Shown here: piece by piece, positions 26,145 to 58,534 of the stretch
How the letters are laid out: each line of letters opens with the position of its first letter
Numbering within the stretch: the first letter of the stretch is position 1
Assembly: GCA_024684215.1 (NCBI GenBank)
Contig: JAIKXH010000100.1
Span: 62,001 to 126,000, forward strand
Length of the DNA: 64,000 nt
Source: Lachnospiraceae bacterium
GTDB taxonomy: Bacteria; Bacillota; Clostridia; Lachnospirales; Lachnospiraceae
Reading direction: 5' to 3'
Notes under the pieces: generated by a model
Seen by the model: only the letters and a program-made list of their open reading frames with translations
Database searches by the model: none
Told to the model about the DNA's origin: nothing
Translations under genes and position numbers: made by a program

Positions 26145-29100
26145 TTAAACATTTACTTCCTCCGCAGAAAGATGTTTTAAAAGCATATAAGTCTCTTTAT
26201 ACACTTTTCTTCTCTCGGTGTTCAATATATACTCCATATCCTTAAACACCTCTTTGTCTGTTAAAAGCTCTATGACATAAGGCGAATACCTTGTACCGCT
26301 TTCTTTAGAAACCTCCAAAACAAATTCATCAAGATTTTTTCCTTCGGAATAGCTCCTTCCGATATAGTCCGTTGCAGCGTCCATGCAATCGGCAACAGTT
26401 ACTATATCTATAACGCTCTTTAAAGGAGACGCCTTAATATCAAAAGATTCGGGGTATCCATTAGAACCGTCATAATAAACATGATGTCCGGCAGCAACCT
26501 CAGCATATGCTTTAGTGCTCTCGTACTTTCTTAAAAGTTCCCAGCCCATAAGCGAATGAGACTTTATGATCGGAAGCTCACTGGGAAGCAGTTCTCTGCC
26601 ATACACAAATACAGTATCGATTATGACAAGCTTACCGAAGTCATGGCACATTGCACTGTGATGCACCAGATGTAAAATAGCATCTTTGTATTCATCTACT
26701 TTATCGGCAGAAGGGCATCCGCATACTCCTATAAAAAGCTCGGGATTTTTCTTCATAAGTCGCTCACAGAGGCATACGGAAATACGCGCAACCATAACCG
26801 AATGAATATATGTCGGCGGATGGAACGCAGCCATAACCTTTAATCCGAATTCCTCAAAAGTCATACCGCCCTGTATTTCGACAAATCTAAGGAGCATACC
26901 GCTATATATACCTATAACGCTGGATATGTATTCGAGCATAGGTATTCTGAATGCATATTCGGTTACGCTCTTATACATATCTGTTATATTGCTTTTCATT
27001 TCAGCTGTAAGTTCACCGTCTGCCGCCACATCAATATAAGATGCAGCAGCTATAAGATTGTCCCCGCCGCGTCTGTCATAAATTCTTTTATCGGCAAATC
27101 TCCAGATGGTATACATACGCTTTAAGTGGTCATATCTGTCACACTTGCCGGCCGCATATCTGATATCCTCGGTGATTGAAAAGATATACTCTAAAGGAAA
27201 TACCTTTTCATACTCTTCGGGGCAGCATCTGCCAAATTCTTCGAGCTCTCTGGCATATTTTTCTATTTTCTTTATACACTCTTTGTCGGAGACACAAGGA
27301 GTAGTAACAAGAATAAACTCATATGCCTTTAAAAGATGTTTATTCCAGTTAAATGAAGGAAATGCCTCCCTGTAAAAAGGATCTCTGGCAATTTTTATAG
27401 AATCCTCTATAAGCTCGATTCTTTTATTTATCTTGCTTACATCAGGTGCATAACCCTTCATGTACTCATATAAAACCGGCCCGTATCTGGAGTCGATTAG
27501 CACAAGTGTTTTATACTCATCTGACAAAAGAACAAACTTATCTTTTTCAAGATACTTAACAATTTCTTCGTAAGCGTAAAGTCCTATTTTTCTAAAACTC
27601 TCAGCCACTTCGGGACATGCCACAAGACGCTTGGTCTGGTTAACCATTAGATAAGAATTTGCAACGACCATATCGAGAGCTTTTAAATAATATTCATCAT
27701 CTCCCGATTTTGAAGCATCATCCATCATCATACAAGAAATTGACAACGCCAAAGAAGCGTCAAGACCAAGCCCATGATTTGGATCTGTAAGTTTACTGCA
27801 AAATGTTATAGCTGCGTTAACAACAACATCAGAAAAAGAAAACTCTTTTCCGAGCAAAGGTCTGACATATTTCTTTATCATATTTCGGTTTTCAAGAGCA
27901 AGCTTACCGATTTCTTTAAAGTTTTCTCTCAAAAGATCCGAATATTCGTCAGGGCTGTCAATCGCTTCAAGTGAAGGAGAAGAAAGCTTTCTTATTCTCC
28001 TGACTCTGTTTACATACTCATTTGTTAAGCCTTCAACCTTTTTGTTTTCAACAAGCTGATAAATATTTGAGTATTTATCCTTAAGATAGATTATAAAATC
28101 ATCAGCCGTAATCTCTCTGCCGGTGATATCTTTAATCCAATCCGTGGGCTTTAATCTATTTGCCTTTTTAAAGACATGCTCCTTCATCCATGTATTAATC
28201 TTGGCGAAGTCTCCTTCTCCCACTGCCTCAAATGGATCGAATTCTTCCTTCATTTTATTTAAATACATGGCATTATAGAAGTTACCTATAGCGTACGTGG
28301 GAAAATAGCCGAAATCCGTGGTCCAATGTACATCCTGCAAAAGACCTTCACTGTCTTTTACAGGCTCTACACCGAGGTATTCTTTATATAACCTATTCCA
28401 CTGACCCGGGAGTTCTTCCATCGTAAGATTGCCGTCGATAAGCCTTTTTTCAAGTTCATATCTGATAATGATATGAAGCGTATAAGTAAGCTCATCAGCC
28501 TCGGTTCTGATAAGCGAGGGAGTTACATAGTTTACCGCTTCATACAGTTCATCCTCCGTTACATCCCTCATGGCCTGAGGGAAAATACGACAAACCGCCG
28601 GATATATCAAATGAATAAACTCTTTTGAACGTCCAAGTACATTTTCATAAAATCTCGAGACAGATTCATGCATGCCCATAGTCTTTAAATCTTCTATGAA
28701 GTACTCATGGTCTTCTCTGGGAAGAAGCTGCTCAAAAAGCGCATGCCCGCACTCATGTATAACCGAATAAATGCTTGAAATAAAACTGTTGGGGTAAAAA
28801 TGAGTGGTTATGCGTACATCATTTTTAGATATAAGAGATGTAAAAGGATGCTCTGAAACGGACATCTGTCCTTTTTTGAAATCAAACCCCATAAGTCCCA
28901 TGAGGTATTTAGCCATTTCCTCCTGCTGCGAGTCTTTTACAGGTCTGCTCAAAAAGTCAGTTCTGATACTTTTTTCGCTCCCTTTTATTTTTTCAAGAAG
29001 ATCTAAAATAATTTCCTTGGTACTGTCAAACAATCTGTCTATAGTGGCAGTATCCATACCTTCTTCGAATTTATTAAGCAAAAACTCATAGTCCGAAAGA

Positions 29101-29588
29101 TGCTCTTCTCCGGGCATTCTAAGCGCTATAGATACATATTTTTTCTTGCTGTCTATAACATTTGAAAGCTTTGGTAAATACTCTGAGACATCTTCATCAT
29201 CCCTTGCCTTTGACCATGCAACCCAAGCTTCGTTTCCGATTCTGGAAAACTCTTCATTAAGTTCGGGTGTAATGAATTTATCATGAACATAAGATTTATA
29301 GAGTTCCTCTACAAGCACCTTATCAGCCTCATACAGGCTTTCTCTTTCACCGTAGCACTCTATAACAGACTCAATAAATTTCGCGCTTTTACGGATCCTG
29401 AATGCATGATTCATAACCCTTATCGCGGAATCTCCCTGTGATTTTTGTCCGTCGGGAGGGCAAATTGTCATCTGATCAAATTCGATAATTGTAGCCGCGT
29501 GGAGATATTCTCTCTCCTTACGAAGCTCTTTTTTTATGTAATTAAGCTTTTTACTGATATTTTCTTCCATCGTTCCCATAATGAACAA
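26145..29588 (-). CDS. Fusion: M32 (carboxypeptidase Taq-like) metallopeptidase plus C-terminal HD-GYP-like domain
   Basis: M32: 'HPFTSLISKNDVRITTHF', 'HECGHALFEQ', 'HESVSRFYENVLGRS', 'RTEADELTYTLHIIIRYELE'. HD-GYP: 'MCHDFGKLVIIDT', 'IIKSHSLMGWELL', 'GHHVYYDGSNGYPESF'. Start may be the internal Met at 29570 or 29579. Confidence 0.88.
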   Translation of the reverse strand: MFIMGTMEENISKKLNYIKKELRKEREYLHAATIIEFDQMTICPPDGQKSQGDSAIRVMNHAFRIRKSAKFIESVIECYGERESLYEADKVLVEELYKSYVHDKFITPELNEEFSRIGNEAWVAWSKARDDEDVSEYLPKLSNVIDSKKKYVSIALRMPGEEHLSDYEFLLNKFEEGMDTATIDRLFDSTKEIILDLLEKIKGSEKSIRTDFLSRPVKDSQQEEMAKYLMGLMGFDFKKGQMSVSEHPFTSLISKNDVRITTHFYPNSFISSIYSVIHECGHALFEQLLPREDHEYFIEDLKTMGMHESVSRFYENVLGRSKEFIHLIYPAVCRIFPQAMRDVTEDELYEAVNYVTPSLIRTEADELTYTLHIIIRYELEKRLIDGNLTMEELPGQWNRLYKEYLGVEPVKDSEGLLQDVHWTTDFGYFPTYAIGNFYNAMYLNKMKEEFDPFEAVGEGDFAKINTWMKEHVFKKANRLKPTDWIKDITGREITADDFIIYLKDKYSNIYQLVENKKVEGLTNEYVNRVRRIRKLSSPSLEAIDSPDEYSDLLRENFKEIGKLALENRNMIKKYVRPLLGKEFSFSDVVVNAAITFCSKLTDPNHGLGLDASLALSISCMMMDDASKSGDDEYYLKALDMVVANSYLMVNQTKRLVACPEVAESFRKIGLYAYEEIVKYLEKDKFVLLSDEYKTLVLIDSRYGPVLYEYMKGYAPDVSKINKRIELIEDSIKIARDPFYREAFPSFNWNKHLLKAYEFILVTTPCVSDKECIKKIEKYARELEEFGRCCPEEYEKVFPLEYIFSITEDIRYAAGKCDRYDHLKRMYTIWRFADKRIYDRRGGDNLIAAASYIDVAADGELTAEMKSNITDMYKSVTEYAFRIPMLEYISSVIGIYSGMLLRFVEIQGGMTFEEFGLKVMAAFHPPTYIHSVMVARISVCLCERLMKKNPELFIGVCGCPSADKVDEYKDAILHLVHHSAMCHDFGKLVIIDTVFVYGRELLPSELPIIKSHSLMGWELLRKYESTKAYAEVAAGHHVYYDGSNGYPESFDIKASPLKSVIDIVTVADCMDAATDYIGRSYSEGKNLDEFVLEVSKESGTRYSPYVIELLTDKEVFKDMEYILNTERRKVYKETYMLLKHLSAEEVNV

Positions 29589-32722: not shown

Positions 32723-33979
32723 TTATTCAAACAGCGTGCAATCAACAAACTCTTCGGCAACGTACGCTAAAGTTCCCTCAAACTTAACGCAACACCATCC
32801 GTCGGCGATAGATACTATTTCAAGCTGGTCTCCGGCCATAAGCGCGCCGACTCTCTCCGAAGCCGTATCCGGAAGACTTCTGATATTAACCTCGGATTTA
32901 GCTGTAAGCATACCTATTGTAGGCTGTCCATCTGAACTTTGTATCATTGATAAATATTCGGATTTAATATATGCCTCTGAGTCATTGTATATAATCTTAG
33001 TCCATCCGTTTAAAAGCTCCTCAACAACCTGGAACTTATCGCCGGTCATAGCCTCACCGACACGCTCAGCATTTGCACTGTCGGAAGCTCTGATATTAAC
33101 TCTTGTAGTGGCAGTTGCATACATAATAACCGGCTCCGCTTCCTCTACAGTCTCTCCTTCACCGTCCTCAGCGTTCTCCTGTGACTCAGCGTCAAGCTCT
33201 GCCTGAGAAGCTGCCGCTTCAGCCTGCTTTTTGTCATTAAGCTGAGCGATTTTTTCTCCTACAGCAGTGCTGACAGTGGTGTCAAGTTCTATGAAATAAT
33301 CAAGAATATCGGGATGTTCAAGAACAAGGTCATTATATTCTACATTAACTTTATTGCTAAGTTCTCTGACATCATCATGGGAAGCTATCTGAGTGATATA
33401 ATCATTTTCCTCATCGGTGAGATCTCTCATTACAATGTAAAGCTCACCCTCAGCATTTACATCCACCAAATACCCCTTAAGTGCGGGGAGCGCAACATCC
33501 GGATATCTCTCAAATACAGCCATATAATATGTATATGTGATATAGCTTCCCTCTTTTGGACCCGCCTGAATATACACATTGTTTAATGTGTAATCAACGT
33601 AAGCGGACTGTTCGGTAAGCCTTATAAGCTCGCTGTCATCTATCACATCACAAAGGCCTAAAAGCGCATCTGTATCTCCGGCAGACAATGCCGCATAAAA
33701 AGACTCAAACAAAGCCTTTATCTTGTCGTCATTTGTCTCTTCCAAAGGAATCTCGGTATTCTCAATTTCCTCCTGAGCGGCAAGTTTTTCGGCTTCTGCA
33801 GCCTGCGCAAGTCGTTCGTTTTCTCTTTCGATGGATTTTTGTCTCTGATCAAGAGCAATCAGAACAACTGCAGCTGCAATTATAAGAACAGCCACAGGTA
33901 AAAGATACTTGCTGTATTTGATAACAAATTTCTTTATATTAGAAAATAAATTTTTGATTTTTTCACCTAAATTCTTCAT
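32723..33979 (-). CDS. Membrane-anchored protein with two C-terminal SH3b domains
   Basis: N-terminal TM; two SH3_3-like units 'TTRVNIRASDSANAERVGEAMTGDKFQVVEELLNGWTKI' and 'KSEVNIRSLPDTASERVGALMAGDQLEIVSIADGWCCV'; start trimmed to MKNLGEK so it does not overlap the tRNA. Confidence 0.85.
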   Translation of the reverse strand: MKNLGEKIKNLFSNIKKFVIKYSKYLLPVAVLIIAAAVVLIALDQRQKSIERENERLAQAAEAEKLAAQEEIENTEIPLEETNDDKIKALFESFYAALSAGDTDALLGLCDVIDDSELIRLTEQSAYVDYTLNNVYIQAGPKEGSYITYTYYMAVFERYPDVALPALKGYLVDVNAEGELYIVMRDLTDEENDYITQIASHDDVRELSNKVNVEYNDLVLEHPDILDYFIELDTTVSTAVGEKIAQLNDKKQAEAAASQAELDAESQENAEDGEGETVEEAEPVIMYATATTRVNIRASDSANAERVGEAMTGDKFQVVEELLNGWTKIIYNDSEAYIKSEYLSMIQSSDGQPTIGMLTAKSEVNIRSLPDTASERVGALMAGDQLEIVSIADGWCCVKFEGTLAYVAEEFVDCTLFE

Positions 33980-34015
33980 AAAAACATTTCCCGGAATAAT
34001 ATATTTGATGCAGGC

Positions 34016-34087
34016 TGCGGCCGACAGGAATCGAACCTGCATTAAAGGCGTCGGAGGCCTTCGTTCTATCCATTAGACTACGGCCGC
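34016..34087 (-). tRNA. tRNA-Arg (anticodon CCG)
   Basis: Minus strand GCGGCCGTAGTCTAATGGATAGAACGAAGGCCTCCGACGCCTTTAATGCAGGTTCGATTCCTGTCGGCCGCA; 7-bp acceptor, AAGGC/GCCTT anticodon stem with loop CTCCGAC, GGTTCGATTCC T-arm; CCA not encoded. Confidence 0.93.
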
Positions 34088-34160
34088 AAATTGTTACAAC
34101 TTTGTTAAGTCGCCTTGCATATATTATCATATATAGGGCCTAAAATCAATTAAAATAATT

Positions 34161-49528: not shown

Positions 49529-51664
49529 CTATCTATACTCGCCGTAATCGACATTGTGAAAATACGGATAACCGTTTATCGAAAAACGATTCTTTCCGTG
49601 CTTTATAATAATATTCTCCTCAGGCGCCATAGTGTCTTTCTGGCAGGCAGTCATAAGGTCAACCGATGTGTCGGAATCGGATATATGTATCATAGTATTA
49701 CTGCTTAGGCCTCCGTAAGCAAGCGCATGGGAACCGCTTCCCTTTACGCGAAGAGTAGCTCTGTCCTGATTGTAGTTTGTACCGCCCTTTACAGAACCGG
49801 CGCCCACAATATAATCGCCCCTTATATCCAGATATATACTGGCATCGCTAAATTCAATATCCGCCTTATCGCCCTCTATCGATCCGATGCATGAAACTTC
49901 AGTTCCCTCGCAATTGCATTTTATTGAAGCATTCTTTGTTTTCACATCGCAATTGCTTTTAATAGAGCCGATTCCTACGCCTTTGGTAACCGCAAGCGCA
50001 ATTTCGATTTCCGATTCCTCGATATCTACCGAAATATCGTTGTAATGGCTTCCGATTCCCACGCCGTAGCCGCAGTTTACAATGAGATTGTATTTGCCCT
50101 TATTAATCCTGATATTTCCGCCGTTTCCGGAACCTATAGCCACACCGGAATTACCCTTTACATCGATATCGATAAAACCGTCCTGGTTAAATATAAGCTC
50201 ACCGTTTCCGGACTCTAAATTATTACCGATTCCGTACGTACTCTGTCCGTCAAGCGCAATATTTAAATTTCCGGGTCCGATAATTGTAAGCTTCGAACTT
50301 TCCGGAACCATGATCCCGCCCTTATCAAACCTGTTATCTCCTATAAGCACAAGCGTTACATCACAATTCTCTCCAAGTTCCACACAGGATTTTCCCTGTG
50401 CGCAGGATAGATGAGCATTTTCCAAAGTAAGCTTTCCTTTATAGCTTGCATAAATCTCAACATGCGCCTTTGTCTTAAGATTATGCGTGCCGGAAACAGT
50501 GATATCATTGGATTCTCTCTCATCCTTGCCTATAAGAATACATGAATAATTTGATTTGCTTATAGATGAAAGATTTACCCTGCCGGTATCATCCGCAATA
50601 TATACCGGCTGCTTTTTACCGACATTGTATTCATCTCTGTATCGTAAGATTTCGCGTCTGATATCGCTGTCTATTTCTCTTATGATATTGGGCGAAGGAT
50701 GAGCGGTATAATAACCCTGGATAAGGTCTACGCCCATTCTTACAACCATTCTTAGCTCTCTCCATGTCTCAACGCCCTCTGCAAGAGAAAGAATATTATT
50801 ATCTTTGCAAAAATCTATAAGTTCCTTAACAAATCTCTGCTTTTTGGGATATTTATCGATTTCCTGAAGCAAAGACCTGTCTATCTTTACGTAGGAAGGC
50901 ATATACTGCAAAAGATTCATTACATTGGAATAACCTGTTCCGTAATCATCGAGCGCAAGTCCTATACCTATAAGCTCGTAACGTCTTTTTATAGCTCGAA
51001 GAGTCGCCTCATCGGCTTCAGTCTGCTCGGTAATCTCCACAACAACATTCTGAGCATGGTCAATAAGTGCAGACTCTATATCGACATAGTCGTCGGGCAG
51101 CAGCCTTGCTCCGGGGATACTGTTGATAAAGATAAGTCTGTCTTTTATAAAATCCAAATTCTCGTCTATTAGTTCGGCAACGTTTAAAAAAGTAAGTCTT
51201 TCGACATCACCGAGTCTGCCGAGAATTTCGCTGTATTTAAGAATTTTAACGGGGTTTATGCTATCAGCATACTTTCTGGCTCTCATAAGAGCCTCAAAAG
51301 CAAATATATGGCCTGTTTCGGCACTGACAATAGGCTGGAAATAATAATTTAAAAGATTATTGTCAAGTATTTCAACAACCTGCTCAAGTTCATGTCTTTC
51401 CTCCTCGGACAAAGCTTCAATGCTCTTTTGCCTAAGTTCGGACACACTCTCTTTTCTTCCGAAAGCACCTGCAAAGATATATGCATCAACTTCAAAATTT
51501 TTAAAGGCATCCATTGCACTTTCCGAAGTCATGTTGTTTATTCGAGGAAGTATCCTGACTTCGCAATCAGCTTCCTCGATACTTTTTTTGATCTTGTCGA
51601 TCAGTTCGCCGTTCTCTTCGGCTATTTCACTGTCTGTCAAAATACCAAAAATTTTCTTTGCCAT
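49529..51664 (-). CDS. EAL-domain c-di-GMP phosphodiesterase fused to a C-terminal beta-helix-like repeat domain
   Basis: EAL motifs 'FEALMRAR', 'VVVEITE', 'LDDYGTGYSN', 'VKIDRSLL', 'AEGVET', 'IQGYYTAHP'; C-terminal ~330 aa with G-[IA]-G-S turns every ~28 aa; start trimmed to MAKKIF. Confidence 0.9.
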   Translation of the reverse strand: MAKKIFGILTDSEIAEENGELIDKIKKSIEEADCEVRILPRINNMTSESAMDAFKNFEVDAYIFAGAFGRKESVSELRQKSIEALSEEERHELEQVVEILDNNLLNYYFQPIVSAETGHIFAFEALMRARKYADSINPVKILKYSEILGRLGDVERLTFLNVAELIDENLDFIKDRLIFINSIPGARLLPDDYVDIESALIDHAQNVVVEITEQTEADEATLRAIKRRYELIGIGLALDDYGTGYSNVMNLLQYMPSYVKIDRSLLQEIDKYPKKQRFVKELIDFCKDNNILSLAEGVETWRELRMVVRMGVDLIQGYYTAHPSPNIIREIDSDIRREILRYRDEYNVGKKQPVYIADDTGRVNLSSISKSNYSCILIGKDERESNDITVSGTHNLKTKAHVEIYASYKGKLTLENAHLSCAQGKSCVELGENCDVTLVLIGDNRFDKGGIMVPESSKLTIIGPGNLNIALDGQSTYGIGNNLESGNGELIFNQDGFIDIDVKGNSGVAIGSGNGGNIRINKGKYNLIVNCGYGVGIGSHYNDISVDIEESEIEIALAVTKGVGIGSIKSNCDVKTKNASIKCNCEGTEVSCIGSIEGDKADIEFSDASIYLDIRGDYIVGAGSVKGGTNYNQDRATLRVKGSGSHALAYGGLSSNTMIHISDSDTSVDLMTACQKDTMAPEENIIIKHGKNRFSINGYPYFHNVDYGEYR

Positions 51665-51685: not shown

Positions 51686-53314
51686 CTATTTGTTATTTCT
51701 TCTTCCCTTAATTTTTGTAAAACAAAAATACAATAAGATCAGAGCCCAAACAGACAAAAGGGCTATTATTAAAGCTTTAGCTCCCGCAGGAAGCGGTCCT
51801 AAATCCGGCTTTTGCCCGGATGAAGCGCCTGCGGCCGCACCAAGCTGGTCCAGCCTATACAGCGATATAATATCATCATAAAGTTTTTCGAAATATGCAT
51901 CATCCACAGTTTGCTTTCTTCGCATGGATTTGGATGTATTTTCGATAAGCTGACCCGCAGCGTCTCTGACGGATGCCGAGCCGTTAAATACAGGCGTTAT
52001 AAAGGTATTTTCAATATTATCAAGAAGCATCTTTGTAGCATCTATCTTTATACTGTAGTATGTGGTATTGTTCTCTCCGCCTCTTGAGAGATAGTCAAGG
52101 TATTCTGCACTGTTTTGTGCCTTTAAAGTGACCGGTACATAACCTTCGGTTTCGGCATAAGGTATCTGAACATCGTTGGTTAAGAGAAATTGCGTAAATA
52201 GCCAAGAAGCCAATACTTCCTGAGGATCTTCCTTGTTAAATACACAAACAGACGGCCCTTGAGAAATCATAAGCGGATTTGAAGGATCTACCTGAGGAAT
52301 CCTTCTTACCACAACATCTATATCACTTATTATATCATCGGAACAAATATCGGACAATGGTGCTTCAGGTCCCATCCAGGTTGCTCCGGCAGTTGAATCT
52401 ATGGCAAAAATACATTGTCCGGCGTTAAGAAAATTACCGGGATAACTTGAAATCTTAAAGGTTGAAAAAGACTTTGTTCCCGCATGAACTGCAATCTCTT
52501 CAAGAATACCCTTTGTATCATCGTTAAACAAAAGAACATCCCCGGCCTCTGTGGTGTAATCGTAACCGTTTTGTTTTAAGAGCTGGATCATCATATTATC
52601 CGTAGATTTATAGATAAACGGGATCAGCACCTTTTGTCCGTTTACAACAAAATTATCATCCCCGTCCTTTTTCATAGCCTCTTCCGATACTTCCCAGATA
52701 AAATCCCAGGTTATATCGTCAGGGAGCTCATATCCAAGCTTTTCAACATAGGTCTTGTTAACATACAAAGCTTCGGAAGACCTCATATAAGGGAGTGCAT
52801 AAAGCTTTCCGCCTATTTCACATTCTTCCAGATACTTTGACACCACTTCGTCTTTTTCAGGCGCATCAAAATTCACTTCACTGCCGCCAAGTCCGTATTT
52901 TGGATCATCTATTAAATCAGACAGGCATAGCACCTGATTGTTACCTGTAAGATAAGTCGCTATATGGTCCGGATATGTAATGCAGACATTTGGCGTGGTA
53001 TTTGTAGCGATATTTGTGATTACATCATTATAAATCTTTCCGTAATCGGTATAAAATCTGAGATTAACCTTAATATTTGGATAAATCTCCTCAAATGCAG
53101 TCACGGACTCTTCGTAAATGGTAGTCTGAGCTTTATTCGTATCATTTTTTGCCCAAAAGGTTATTTCAATGTCTTTTGAAGTATCAAACTCTTCAGGCAT
53201 TTGAAATCCTGCATTGCCGGAAGAAGCATGACATCCTGTAAGCATAAGACATGAAAATGCCGCAAATGCCAACACTAAATGCTTACCAAAGGATTTAAAA
53301 AACTTGCCGATCAT
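51686..53314 (-). CDS. ABC transporter solute-binding lipoprotein with C-terminal TM segment
   Basis: Lipobox 'CLMLTGCHAS'; SBP family 1-like; C-terminal 'ALIIALLSVWALILLYFCFTKIKGRRNNK'. Confidence 0.9.
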   Translation of the reverse strand: MIGKFFKSFGKHLVLAFAAFSCLMLTGCHASSGNAGFQMPEEFDTSKDIEITFWAKNDTNKAQTTIYEESVTAFEEIYPNIKVNLRFYTDYGKIYNDVITNIATNTTPNVCITYPDHIATYLTGNNQVLCLSDLIDDPKYGLGGSEVNFDAPEKDEVVSKYLEECEIGGKLYALPYMRSSEALYVNKTYVEKLGYELPDDITWDFIWEVSEEAMKKDGDDNFVVNGQKVLIPFIYKSTDNMMIQLLKQNGYDYTTEAGDVLLFNDDTKGILEEIAVHAGTKSFSTFKISSYPGNFLNAGQCIFAIDSTAGATWMGPEAPLSDICSDDIISDIDVVVRRIPQVDPSNPLMISQGPSVCVFNKEDPQEVLASWLFTQFLLTNDVQIPYAETEGYVPVTLKAQNSAEYLDYLSRGGENNTTYYSIKIDATKMLLDNIENTFITPVFNGSASVRDAAGQLIENTSKSMRRKQTVDDAYFEKLYDDIISLYRLDQLGAAAGASSGQKPDLGPLPAGAKALIIALLSVWALILLYFCFTKIKGRRNNK

Positions 53315-56293: not shown

Positions 56294-58534
56294 TTATGAC
56301 TTAAGGTATTCAAGTTCATTTGAAATTTCCATCGGAATGGGACTTCCGGTGTTTTTCACTTTCTGAATGAGTACATCCATACGATGAATCTTCTGTGCCT
56401 GCTTCCTGTCATAATACTCAATGATTTCTTTAAAGGTAGGATTTTGTAAAAGGGCTGTTCTCTTGGCCGCAGGGAAAGGACAATACTTACCCATAATGCT
56501 TCTGGTGACTTTATTAAGTCTGGGTGAACCGTCGCTTTCATATGCTACCCAAATCATATAATCCATTACAAACATCTCTTTAAAGCTGTTTTTGGCTCTC
56601 TGGAGCTGTAACTTAACCTTTTCCTTTGCATCCACGGACAAGTCGTGATTTTTACGATAAAACTGTGCGTAATCAAAATACTCACTTGTAAGCGAAGGGT
56701 CTGAAACATCGTTCCATCTGGCGCCCTGTACTCTCTTACACATCTCCCATCTGTACTCGCCGCACATATGTAAGATTTGAGATTTCATGTCCTCCAAATC
56801 AAATACCGGAAGCATAAATCTGGCATGAGTATTTCTAACACGTCCCTGAATCTCCTGCCACATAAGTCCTCTGGTTCCCACGTTCGGCATAAGTATGACA
56901 TCGGGAAGTACCTCTGTACCTACATATTCGCCCTTTATACCGAGACGTTCGTTGGAATATAGATTATCTCTGTAAAAAAGCTGAAAATCAATATCTTTAG
57001 TGTTCTCGATAACCTGGTTTGCAAGTCCTGCGGTTACAAGATTATCGGGAAGCTTTCTTACCACGTTAACACTGTTAAATATAGGACAGAAAATAGTGAT
57101 AAGGCCAAAGGTTACTTTATTTGCGGAGATAAACATATTTTTAAGCTCATATTTGACCATAGCCGTTCGGTCCTTCATAAGCTTTTTCTCTTCTTCCGCA
57201 GTTATTTGATTCTTAACCTTTTTCTCGTGAACAAAGGCCTCATAGTCAACATCAAATTCATTTTTGGAAGGAAGCCTGTCGCCTACGTAGATAGCTTCAA
57301 GCCACTCAAAAAAATTAAACACACAGGCCGCCGGATTGGTGTATCCGCTGCCGGCCTTTTCATACAGATAAAACAGATCGCTCTTTGTGCAAAGTTCCTC
57401 ATCCATATATCCGAATTCCAGGAACATTCTGATAAGCTTAGAAGGCATGCTTCCCTTTAAAACCTTGAGAACAACAGCCTCGTATATCATGTAAAAATAG
57501 TTTGTAATATCCAGTCTTATATGTCTGGCCGCGTCGTCCTGGCTCCTGGGATCCGCAAGATTTCTGTAAGAAATTATAAGTGACTTGAAATCATTGTGAG
57601 TCTTTTCATCACAACCCGCAAAATCAAGTATCTTATCTACCGAATCTTCAAGTTCAGCAAAGATCTCAGCTTCATTTTCGGTATGATCTGCTTTAAGCTT
57701 TGTACGCTCAACCTTCATACCAAAAGCTGAAGTGCGCTCGAAATATCTGTTGGGATTAATATAATTCTTTTTGTTTAAATAATCCTCTATGGTGCGGATT
57801 TTGTTTAATATGCTGTCAGATACAGTTCCGAAAGCACTGTCTAAATAGCTTCTGGTCAGTATACCGTAAAGGTCTGAATTTTCATCCTCCAATACAAGCT
57901 GACCTATCTCAGATAAATATATAAAAATCTTTTTCGAACCAAGGGTTATTGCTCTCGCATCTTTTGAAAGCTTTGAAATGAAAATATCCAAAAACTCGGG
58001 AGATACTTTTCTTCCATCGGTTACAAGATTTGCTATCTCGTTATAATATCCGTTTAAATTGTCATTTACACCGGAATCGTCAATAAACCTGCCTTTTCTG
58101 GCAAGTTCGTTAAAAGGTTCGGCCATAGTTCCGACTTTTGCACATAAATCTTTGTAAAAATCGTATATGCTTTCAGCCATGTTATACAGCTCATCAGTCT
58201 CTTCCTTTACAACGGAAAACTGAGAAACACATTCTAAAATCTGCCTTATGGCAGACCTGTAAATGTATGCTGAAAAATCATTCTTTTTTTCAAGCATCGA
58301 GTATAAACTTTCAATCGGAATGGGAATTAAAACAGAATCTTCAAGAGCCATGTAATTGAAAAAGTGTGCTTCAAAGCCCACTTCCAACGCCCCTATTACA
58401 TCCCCCTTGGATAGATTAAATCTGATACCCGGTGCCGATACTGTTACCTCACCGTCGGAAATAAGATAAAGCATATCATTATTACCGGCCGCACCTGCAA
58501 TAATATCATTTTTTGTAACGTTTTTTGAAGCCAT
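56294..58534 (-). CDS. 746-aa protein with N-terminal cyclic-nucleotide-binding-like (cupin/beta-roll) domain
   Basis: 'MLYLISDGEVTVSAPGIRFNLSKGDVIGALEVGF...MALEDSVLIPIPIESLYSMLEKKNDF' resembles a cNMP-binding fold; the remaining ~600 aa are not recognised. Confidence 0.7.
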   Translation of the reverse strand: MASKNVTKNDIIAGAAGNNDMLYLISDGEVTVSAPGIRFNLSKGDVIGALEVGFEAHFFNYMALEDSVLIPIPIESLYSMLEKKNDFSAYIYRSAIRQILECVSQFSVVKEETDELYNMAESIYDFYKDLCAKVGTMAEPFNELARKGRFIDDSGVNDNLNGYYNEIANLVTDGRKVSPEFLDIFISKLSKDARAITLGSKKIFIYLSEIGQLVLEDENSDLYGILTRSYLDSAFGTVSDSILNKIRTIEDYLNKKNYINPNRYFERTSAFGMKVERTKLKADHTENEAEIFAELEDSVDKILDFAGCDEKTHNDFKSLIISYRNLADPRSQDDAARHIRLDITNYFYMIYEAVVLKVLKGSMPSKLIRMFLEFGYMDEELCTKSDLFYLYEKAGSGYTNPAACVFNFFEWLEAIYVGDRLPSKNEFDVDYEAFVHEKKVKNQITAEEEKKLMKDRTAMVKYELKNMFISANKVTFGLITIFCPIFNSVNVVRKLPDNLVTAGLANQVIENTKDIDFQLFYRDNLYSNERLGIKGEYVGTEVLPDVILMPNVGTRGLMWQEIQGRVRNTHARFMLPVFDLEDMKSQILHMCGEYRWEMCKRVQGARWNDVSDPSLTSEYFDYAQFYRKNHDLSVDAKEKVKLQLQRAKNSFKEMFVMDYMIWVAYESDGSPRLNKVTRSIMGKYCPFPAAKRTALLQNPTFKEIIEYYDRKQAQKIHRMDVLIQKVKNTGSPIPMEISNELEYLKS

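Follow-up and report, generated by a model that had tools for sequence, protein, structure and literature searches.

An EAL domain joined to a predicted cytoplasmic beta-helix in a Lachnospiraceae bacterium and other Clostridia

Introduction

To our knowledge, control by c-di-GMP has been little studied in the fibre-associated Clostridia of the gut and rumen. Among described EAL phosphodiesterases (PF00563), RocR, DosP, BlrP1 and YahA have the EAL fold and a complete catalytic set in common with the 711 aa protein reported here; unlike in this protein, we know of no beta-helix C-terminus in these solved relatives. YkuI-type EAL proteins resemble it in carrying an accessory domain which is thought to be intracellular (PMC8846402), although that domain, YkuI_C, is CACHE-like and not a beta-helix. 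The census of c-di-GMP sensory domains in the same paper makes no mention of a beta-helix. A search of the open-access literature, with most subscription journals outside its scope, found no description of an EAL–beta-helix protein, which is weak evidence. EAL proteins act within local protein complexes (PMC5635695).

Among beta-helix proteins, Cthe_2159 (PF14262; solved homologues 4peu and 4phb) is reported to bind cellulose and polygalacturonic acid (PMC6712302) and has no EAL domain. PF18889 (Beta_helix_3) has been catalogued as a stalk domain (PMC8286594). Bactofilins (PF04519) are cytoplasmic proteins which form filaments (PMC12448750). Here we describe an EAL protein encoded in a stretch of 64,000 nucleotides from a Lachnospiraceae bacterium, referred to below as the window, and compare it to these systems.

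Domain structure of the EAL protein

The gene is complete, running from an ATG start to a stop codon on the minus strand (49529..51664), and encodes 711 aa. Residues 99–323 (50696..51370, minus strand) matched the Pfam EAL family PF00563 (E = 1e−46; 159.7 bits against a cutoff of 31.3), and the catalytic and metal-binding residues are all present: E124, R128, N181, E210, D239, D240, K260, E296, E299 and Q316. These signature residues are retained across 29 homologues, the sole exception being the lysine in one of them (L051), and the relatives of the domain are solved phosphodiesterases. No transmembrane segment was found in the protein (the highest Kyte–Doolittle mean over 19 residues was 0.84), and the N-terminus lacks any hydrophobic, signal-peptide-like stretch. 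An earlier note on this DNA had described a motif-complete EAL domain in a protein without signal peptide or membrane segment, and both descriptions hold. We infer that the protein is a cytoplasmic c-di-GMP phosphodiesterase, with hydrolysis predicted from the complete catalytic residues. A further EAL region in the same genome (L003, G000:C147:7269-7943) contains an in-frame TAA.

The N-terminal ~72 aa (51449..51664, minus strand) were modelled by AlphaFold with low confidence, and residues 1–72 matched no family in Pfam. By eye this short N-terminus looks like the LacI-type domain of longer relatives; the idea that it is a remnant of that domain was nevertheless rejected, as it scored below shuffled sequences. 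Between the EAL domain and the C-terminal domain lies a linker (residues 324–353; 50606..50695, minus strand) which is mostly one predicted helix (residues 333–350). Its length is nearly constant across the family, at 24–27 residues in 41 of the 42 fusions from sampled genomes (34 in the other one) and 24–28 residues in the loci from named genomes, and its alignment is almost gap-free. Because the linker is short, nearly fixed in length and mostly helical, the EAL domain and the beta-helix probably move as one unit.

Conservation, AlphaFold models and profile comparison place an all-beta domain of ~355 residues at the C-terminus (residues 354–711; 49532..50605, minus strand), with a short predicted helix near its start (residues 365–370, within the same coordinates) as a possible cap. 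The earlier note had put this domain in the last ~330 aa; a domain is indeed there, but it is slightly larger and structured from near residue 355. Seven GxG turns about 28 residues apart, as previously noted, run from residue 477 to about residue 652 (49708..50236, minus strand), starting at residues 477, 508, 535, 563, 591, 620 and 648 with spacings of 31, 27, 28, 28, 29 and 28. A simple pattern matched exactly these seven turns, and when the C-terminus was shuffled 20,000 times it never matched more than 4 positions; this shuffle test is a plausibility check, the pattern having been composed after the turns were seen. Independent and stronger support for the repeats comes from 30 homologues, across which the turn glycines vary little or not at all. 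The repeat length of 27–31 residues is typical of solenoids.

When the C-terminal domain was modelled in isolation, AlphaFold returned a confident all-beta structure (pLDDT 95.1, pTM 0.92), which together with the repeat length supports the parallel-beta-helix type proposed in the earlier note. The domain was equally confident in the full-length model, where the overall pTM was 0.55, so the prediction does not fix how the EAL domain and the beta-helix are placed relative to each other. Most of the top Foldseek matches to the domain in the PDB were proteins with a parallel beta-helix, among them lyases, polygalacturonases, tailspikes and NosD, but none was significant (best E = 0.17, TM ≤ ~0.32), and the PDB and viral searches gave no significant specific relative. 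Matches this weak do not establish the right-handed coiling suggested in the earlier note. The search for a solved relative by sequence profile gave one chance-level match only. Residues 354–711 reached no Pfam or NCBIfam cutoff, including those of PF18889 and PF14262, and DUF7467 alone appeared, below its cutoff. Assignment of the C-terminal domain to the beta-solenoid fold class, with no close solved relative, is well supported.

Distribution of the fusion within the Clostridia

The pairing of EAL domain and beta-helix, which had been presented as an oddity of one protein, turned out to be a recurrent architecture. Of 397 genomes sampled from the same family, 24 contained the beta-helix domain, and full-length fusions were also found in two other families in our sample of the class, including Saccharofermentans. 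Among the genomes sampled from the phylum, those outside the Clostridia gave no match, and a pattern scan found no viral source. A scan of named genomes with the query domain alone gave zero matches; seeded with three close relatives, it gave 29 loci. These belong to Saccharofermentans, Ruminococcaceae or Lachnospiraceae genomes, several of which are titled as originating from herbivore rumen, omasum, jejunum or faeces.

The EAL domain directly precedes the beta-helix in all 42 fusions from sampled genomes and in 28 of the 29 named loci, the remaining one being interrupted by a contig end. EAL and C-terminal domain distances are correlated (Mantel r = 0.79, 0 of 2000 permutations), indicating that the two domains descend together, and the fusions group together in a quick EAL tree with low support at their base. 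In contrast to this constant pair, the N-termini are exchangeable: a LacI-type Peripla_BP domain followed by a ~200-residue region of no assigned family, with or without GGDEF; GGDEF alone; GNAT; a pair of hydrophobic segments (transmembrane); or a short N-terminus without a family match. The GNAT acetyltransferase domain stands ahead of the EAL domain and beta-helix at L055:7918-10281 (minus strand). By simple pattern, the canonical GGDEF motif was found in none of the GGDEF regions examined, with GSDEF or GNDEF in a few. The quick EAL tree also points to at least two separate origins of the short forms.

Conservation in the C-terminal domain is mostly confined to turn glycines and core residues, and mean pairwise identity falls to 15–22% in the last coils. 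Such weakly conserved coils would be expected if the fusion were an ordinary domain shuffle of little functional meaning, with the beta-helix as passive bulk. We consider this very improbable, as homologues from three Clostridia families keep a similar length after the EAL domain (365–433 residues), turn glycines which are invariant or nearly so and a fixed linker. No truncation of the beta-helix was seen among complete loci.

Ancestry of the beta-helix

The family profile retrieved secreted proteins, several of them with PF18889 repeats. In profile–profile comparison the EAL-linked domain matched the secreted PF18889-type set at 98.8% (E = 1.4e−16, 177 columns) and Cthe_2159/PF14262 at 94.6% across about 103 columns, and these two secreted sets matched each other at 95.2%. 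Pairwise profile E-values can be inflated for solenoids; however, the signal appears specific because the control profiles were negative (bactofilin 0.2%, Beta_helix PF13229 0.3%). The kinship to extracellular beta-helix families which had been suggested from the turns is thus supported by profile comparison, although searches with the families themselves reached no Pfam cutoff. Ancestry from bactofilins or generic Beta_helix proteins (PF13229) was rejected on the same 0.2–0.3%. Over the ~177 columns, the EAL-linked domain and the PF18889-type proteins have NVxI, VTLxLxGxN, GIxVPxxSxLTIxGxGxL and GIG turn motifs in common, while the turns read GIGS in the former and GAGIGGG in the latter. Elsewhere in the same genome (G000:C87, G000:C158) there are two Cthe_2159 (PF14262) matches as well as bactofilin matches, and no PF18889 match.

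Where their N-terminus is complete, the PF18889-type proteins are secreted or surface proteins, whereas the EAL-linked beta-helix is predicted to be cytoplasmic and is rich in cysteine (2.25 Cys per 100 residues, where the PF18889-type and PF14262 sets have 0.37 and 0.82, respectively). This enrichment is consistent with a reducing cytoplasm. The economical reading is that a surface beta-helix was taken into the cytoplasm and became fixed behind an EAL domain, the direction of transfer being inferred.

The cysteines also bear on an autoregulatory role, in which contact between the beta-helix and the EAL domain would hold the enzyme on or off, possibly via redox-sensitive cysteines. There are about 8 cysteines per domain, enriched relative to the secreted relatives; the linker is fixed, the two domains share their descent, and YkuI_C provides a precedent for an accessory domain, thought to be intracellular, in c-di-GMP proteins (PMC8846402). 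However, cysteines are conserved at few positions (the family has Cys where query residue 551 is Ser) and the placement of the domains is not confidently predicted, and we regard autoregulation as unlikely.

Genomic setting

The EAL gene is preceded on its own strand, at a distance of 21 nt, by the gene for the solute-binding protein of a sugar-type ABC transporter (51686..53314, minus strand), and the two are likely to be carried on one transcript. The solute-binding protein has a lipobox-like N-terminus and a C-terminal hydrophobic segment which resembles a transmembrane anchor. Further upstream, likewise on the minus strand, are two permease genes, an ABC ATPase gene and then a PfkB kinase gene, beyond which uronate isomerase, altronate dehydratase and mannitol-dehydrogenase-family genes are found, also on the minus strand. 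This arrangement suggests that the EAL gene is expressed together with a uronate-uptake cluster. An ORF of 746 aa (56294-58534, minus strand), located between the genes for the ABC ATPase and the PfkB kinase, has only a sub-cutoff match, at its N-terminus, to a cyclic-nucleotide-binding domain.

The setting of this gene raises the question of an intracellular carbohydrate sensor, in which the beta-helix would bind either an internal polymer or an imported oligosaccharide, in this genome perhaps an oligogalacturonide, and tune EAL activity. The proximity to the sugar-type solute-binding gene and to the uronate isomerase, altronate dehydratase and mannitol-dehydrogenase-family genes agrees with such a role, as do the profile relation to Cthe_2159, a reported binder of cellulose and polygalacturonic acid (PMC6712302), and the LacI-type sugar-binding domain in many relatives. 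Against it, UxaA/UxaB homologues were found among relatives only near L051, and there on the opposite strand; the Cthe_2159 match spans only about 103 columns; no conserved aromatic or acidic cluster was found in the beta-helix at family level; and where sugar sensing is likely the N-terminal domain already provides it. For the same lack of a conserved cluster, the polysaccharide binding proposed for the C-terminus in the earlier note is not supported. We therefore judge a carbohydrate sensor rather unlikely, although individual lineages may have ligands of their own even where a binding patch common to the family is lacking. Sugar-type permeases are found close to a relative of the same genus (L041), but most relatives adjoin unrelated genes, and a general tie of the family to galacturonate use was rejected because the setting is not conserved in the relatives' neighbourhoods.

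Two further genes of the window, both on the minus strand, are worthy of note. The ORF at 26145-29588 (1147 aa) combines an M32 carboxypeptidase (PF02074, E = 2e−150) with an HD domain at the C-terminus (PF01966, exceeding its cutoff, with a weak HD_5 match), which is an unusual pairing. The predicted start of the ORF at 32723-34042 overlaps a tRNA-Arg gene (34013-34088, minus strand), and its true start is therefore probably further downstream.

Discussion

We tentatively favour, at somewhat short of even confidence, the explanation that the protein is a cytoplasmic c-di-GMP phosphodiesterase whose beta-helix, instead of binding carbohydrate in the classical way, serves as a rigid module for assembly or for partner binding. 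This role is favoured because the linker is fixed, the EAL partner is constant and the inputs are exchangeable, and because conservation is mostly structural, without a family-wide aromatic or acidic patch, the exposure of beta-helix residues having been judged from sequence alone. The EAL domain would hydrolyse c-di-GMP, as its residues predict, and in relatives the LacI-type sugar-binding, GGDEF, GNAT or membrane-anchor inputs would feed a constant EAL–beta-helix output unit. The beta-helix would present an extended surface through which the protein could self-assemble or bind a partner protein, and would thereby place c-di-GMP breakdown at one site or couple assembly to EAL activity.

Bactofilins offer a precedent for a cytoplasmic protein of beta-helix type, but by analogy only, since their profile similarity to the EAL-linked domain is nil. 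Nor does descent by itself speak for a scaffold, as Cthe_2159 binds polysaccharide (PMC6712302). It should also be noted that an assembly or partner role is weakened by the absence of a conserved gene partner from 29 neighbourhoods of relatives and by the full-length pTM of 0.55.

In its widest form, the proposal is of a new c-di-GMP output unit in Clostridia: an EAL domain, with exchangeable sugar-sensing inputs, on a beta-helix that derives from secreted surface proteins and now resides in the cytoplasm. This beta-helix would assemble, or would recognise a partner or a carbohydrate within the cell, and would thereby determine where c-di-GMP is broken down. We regard this as possible but doubtful. 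The pairing itself is, judging by the genomes compared, recurrent in many plant-fibre-associated Clostridia. If the proposal is true, a family in which LacI-type inputs are wired to a constant EAL–beta-helix output would link the sensing of plant sugars to c-di-GMP turnover, and a surface beta-helix fold would have been relocated to the cytoplasm as a part of signalling.
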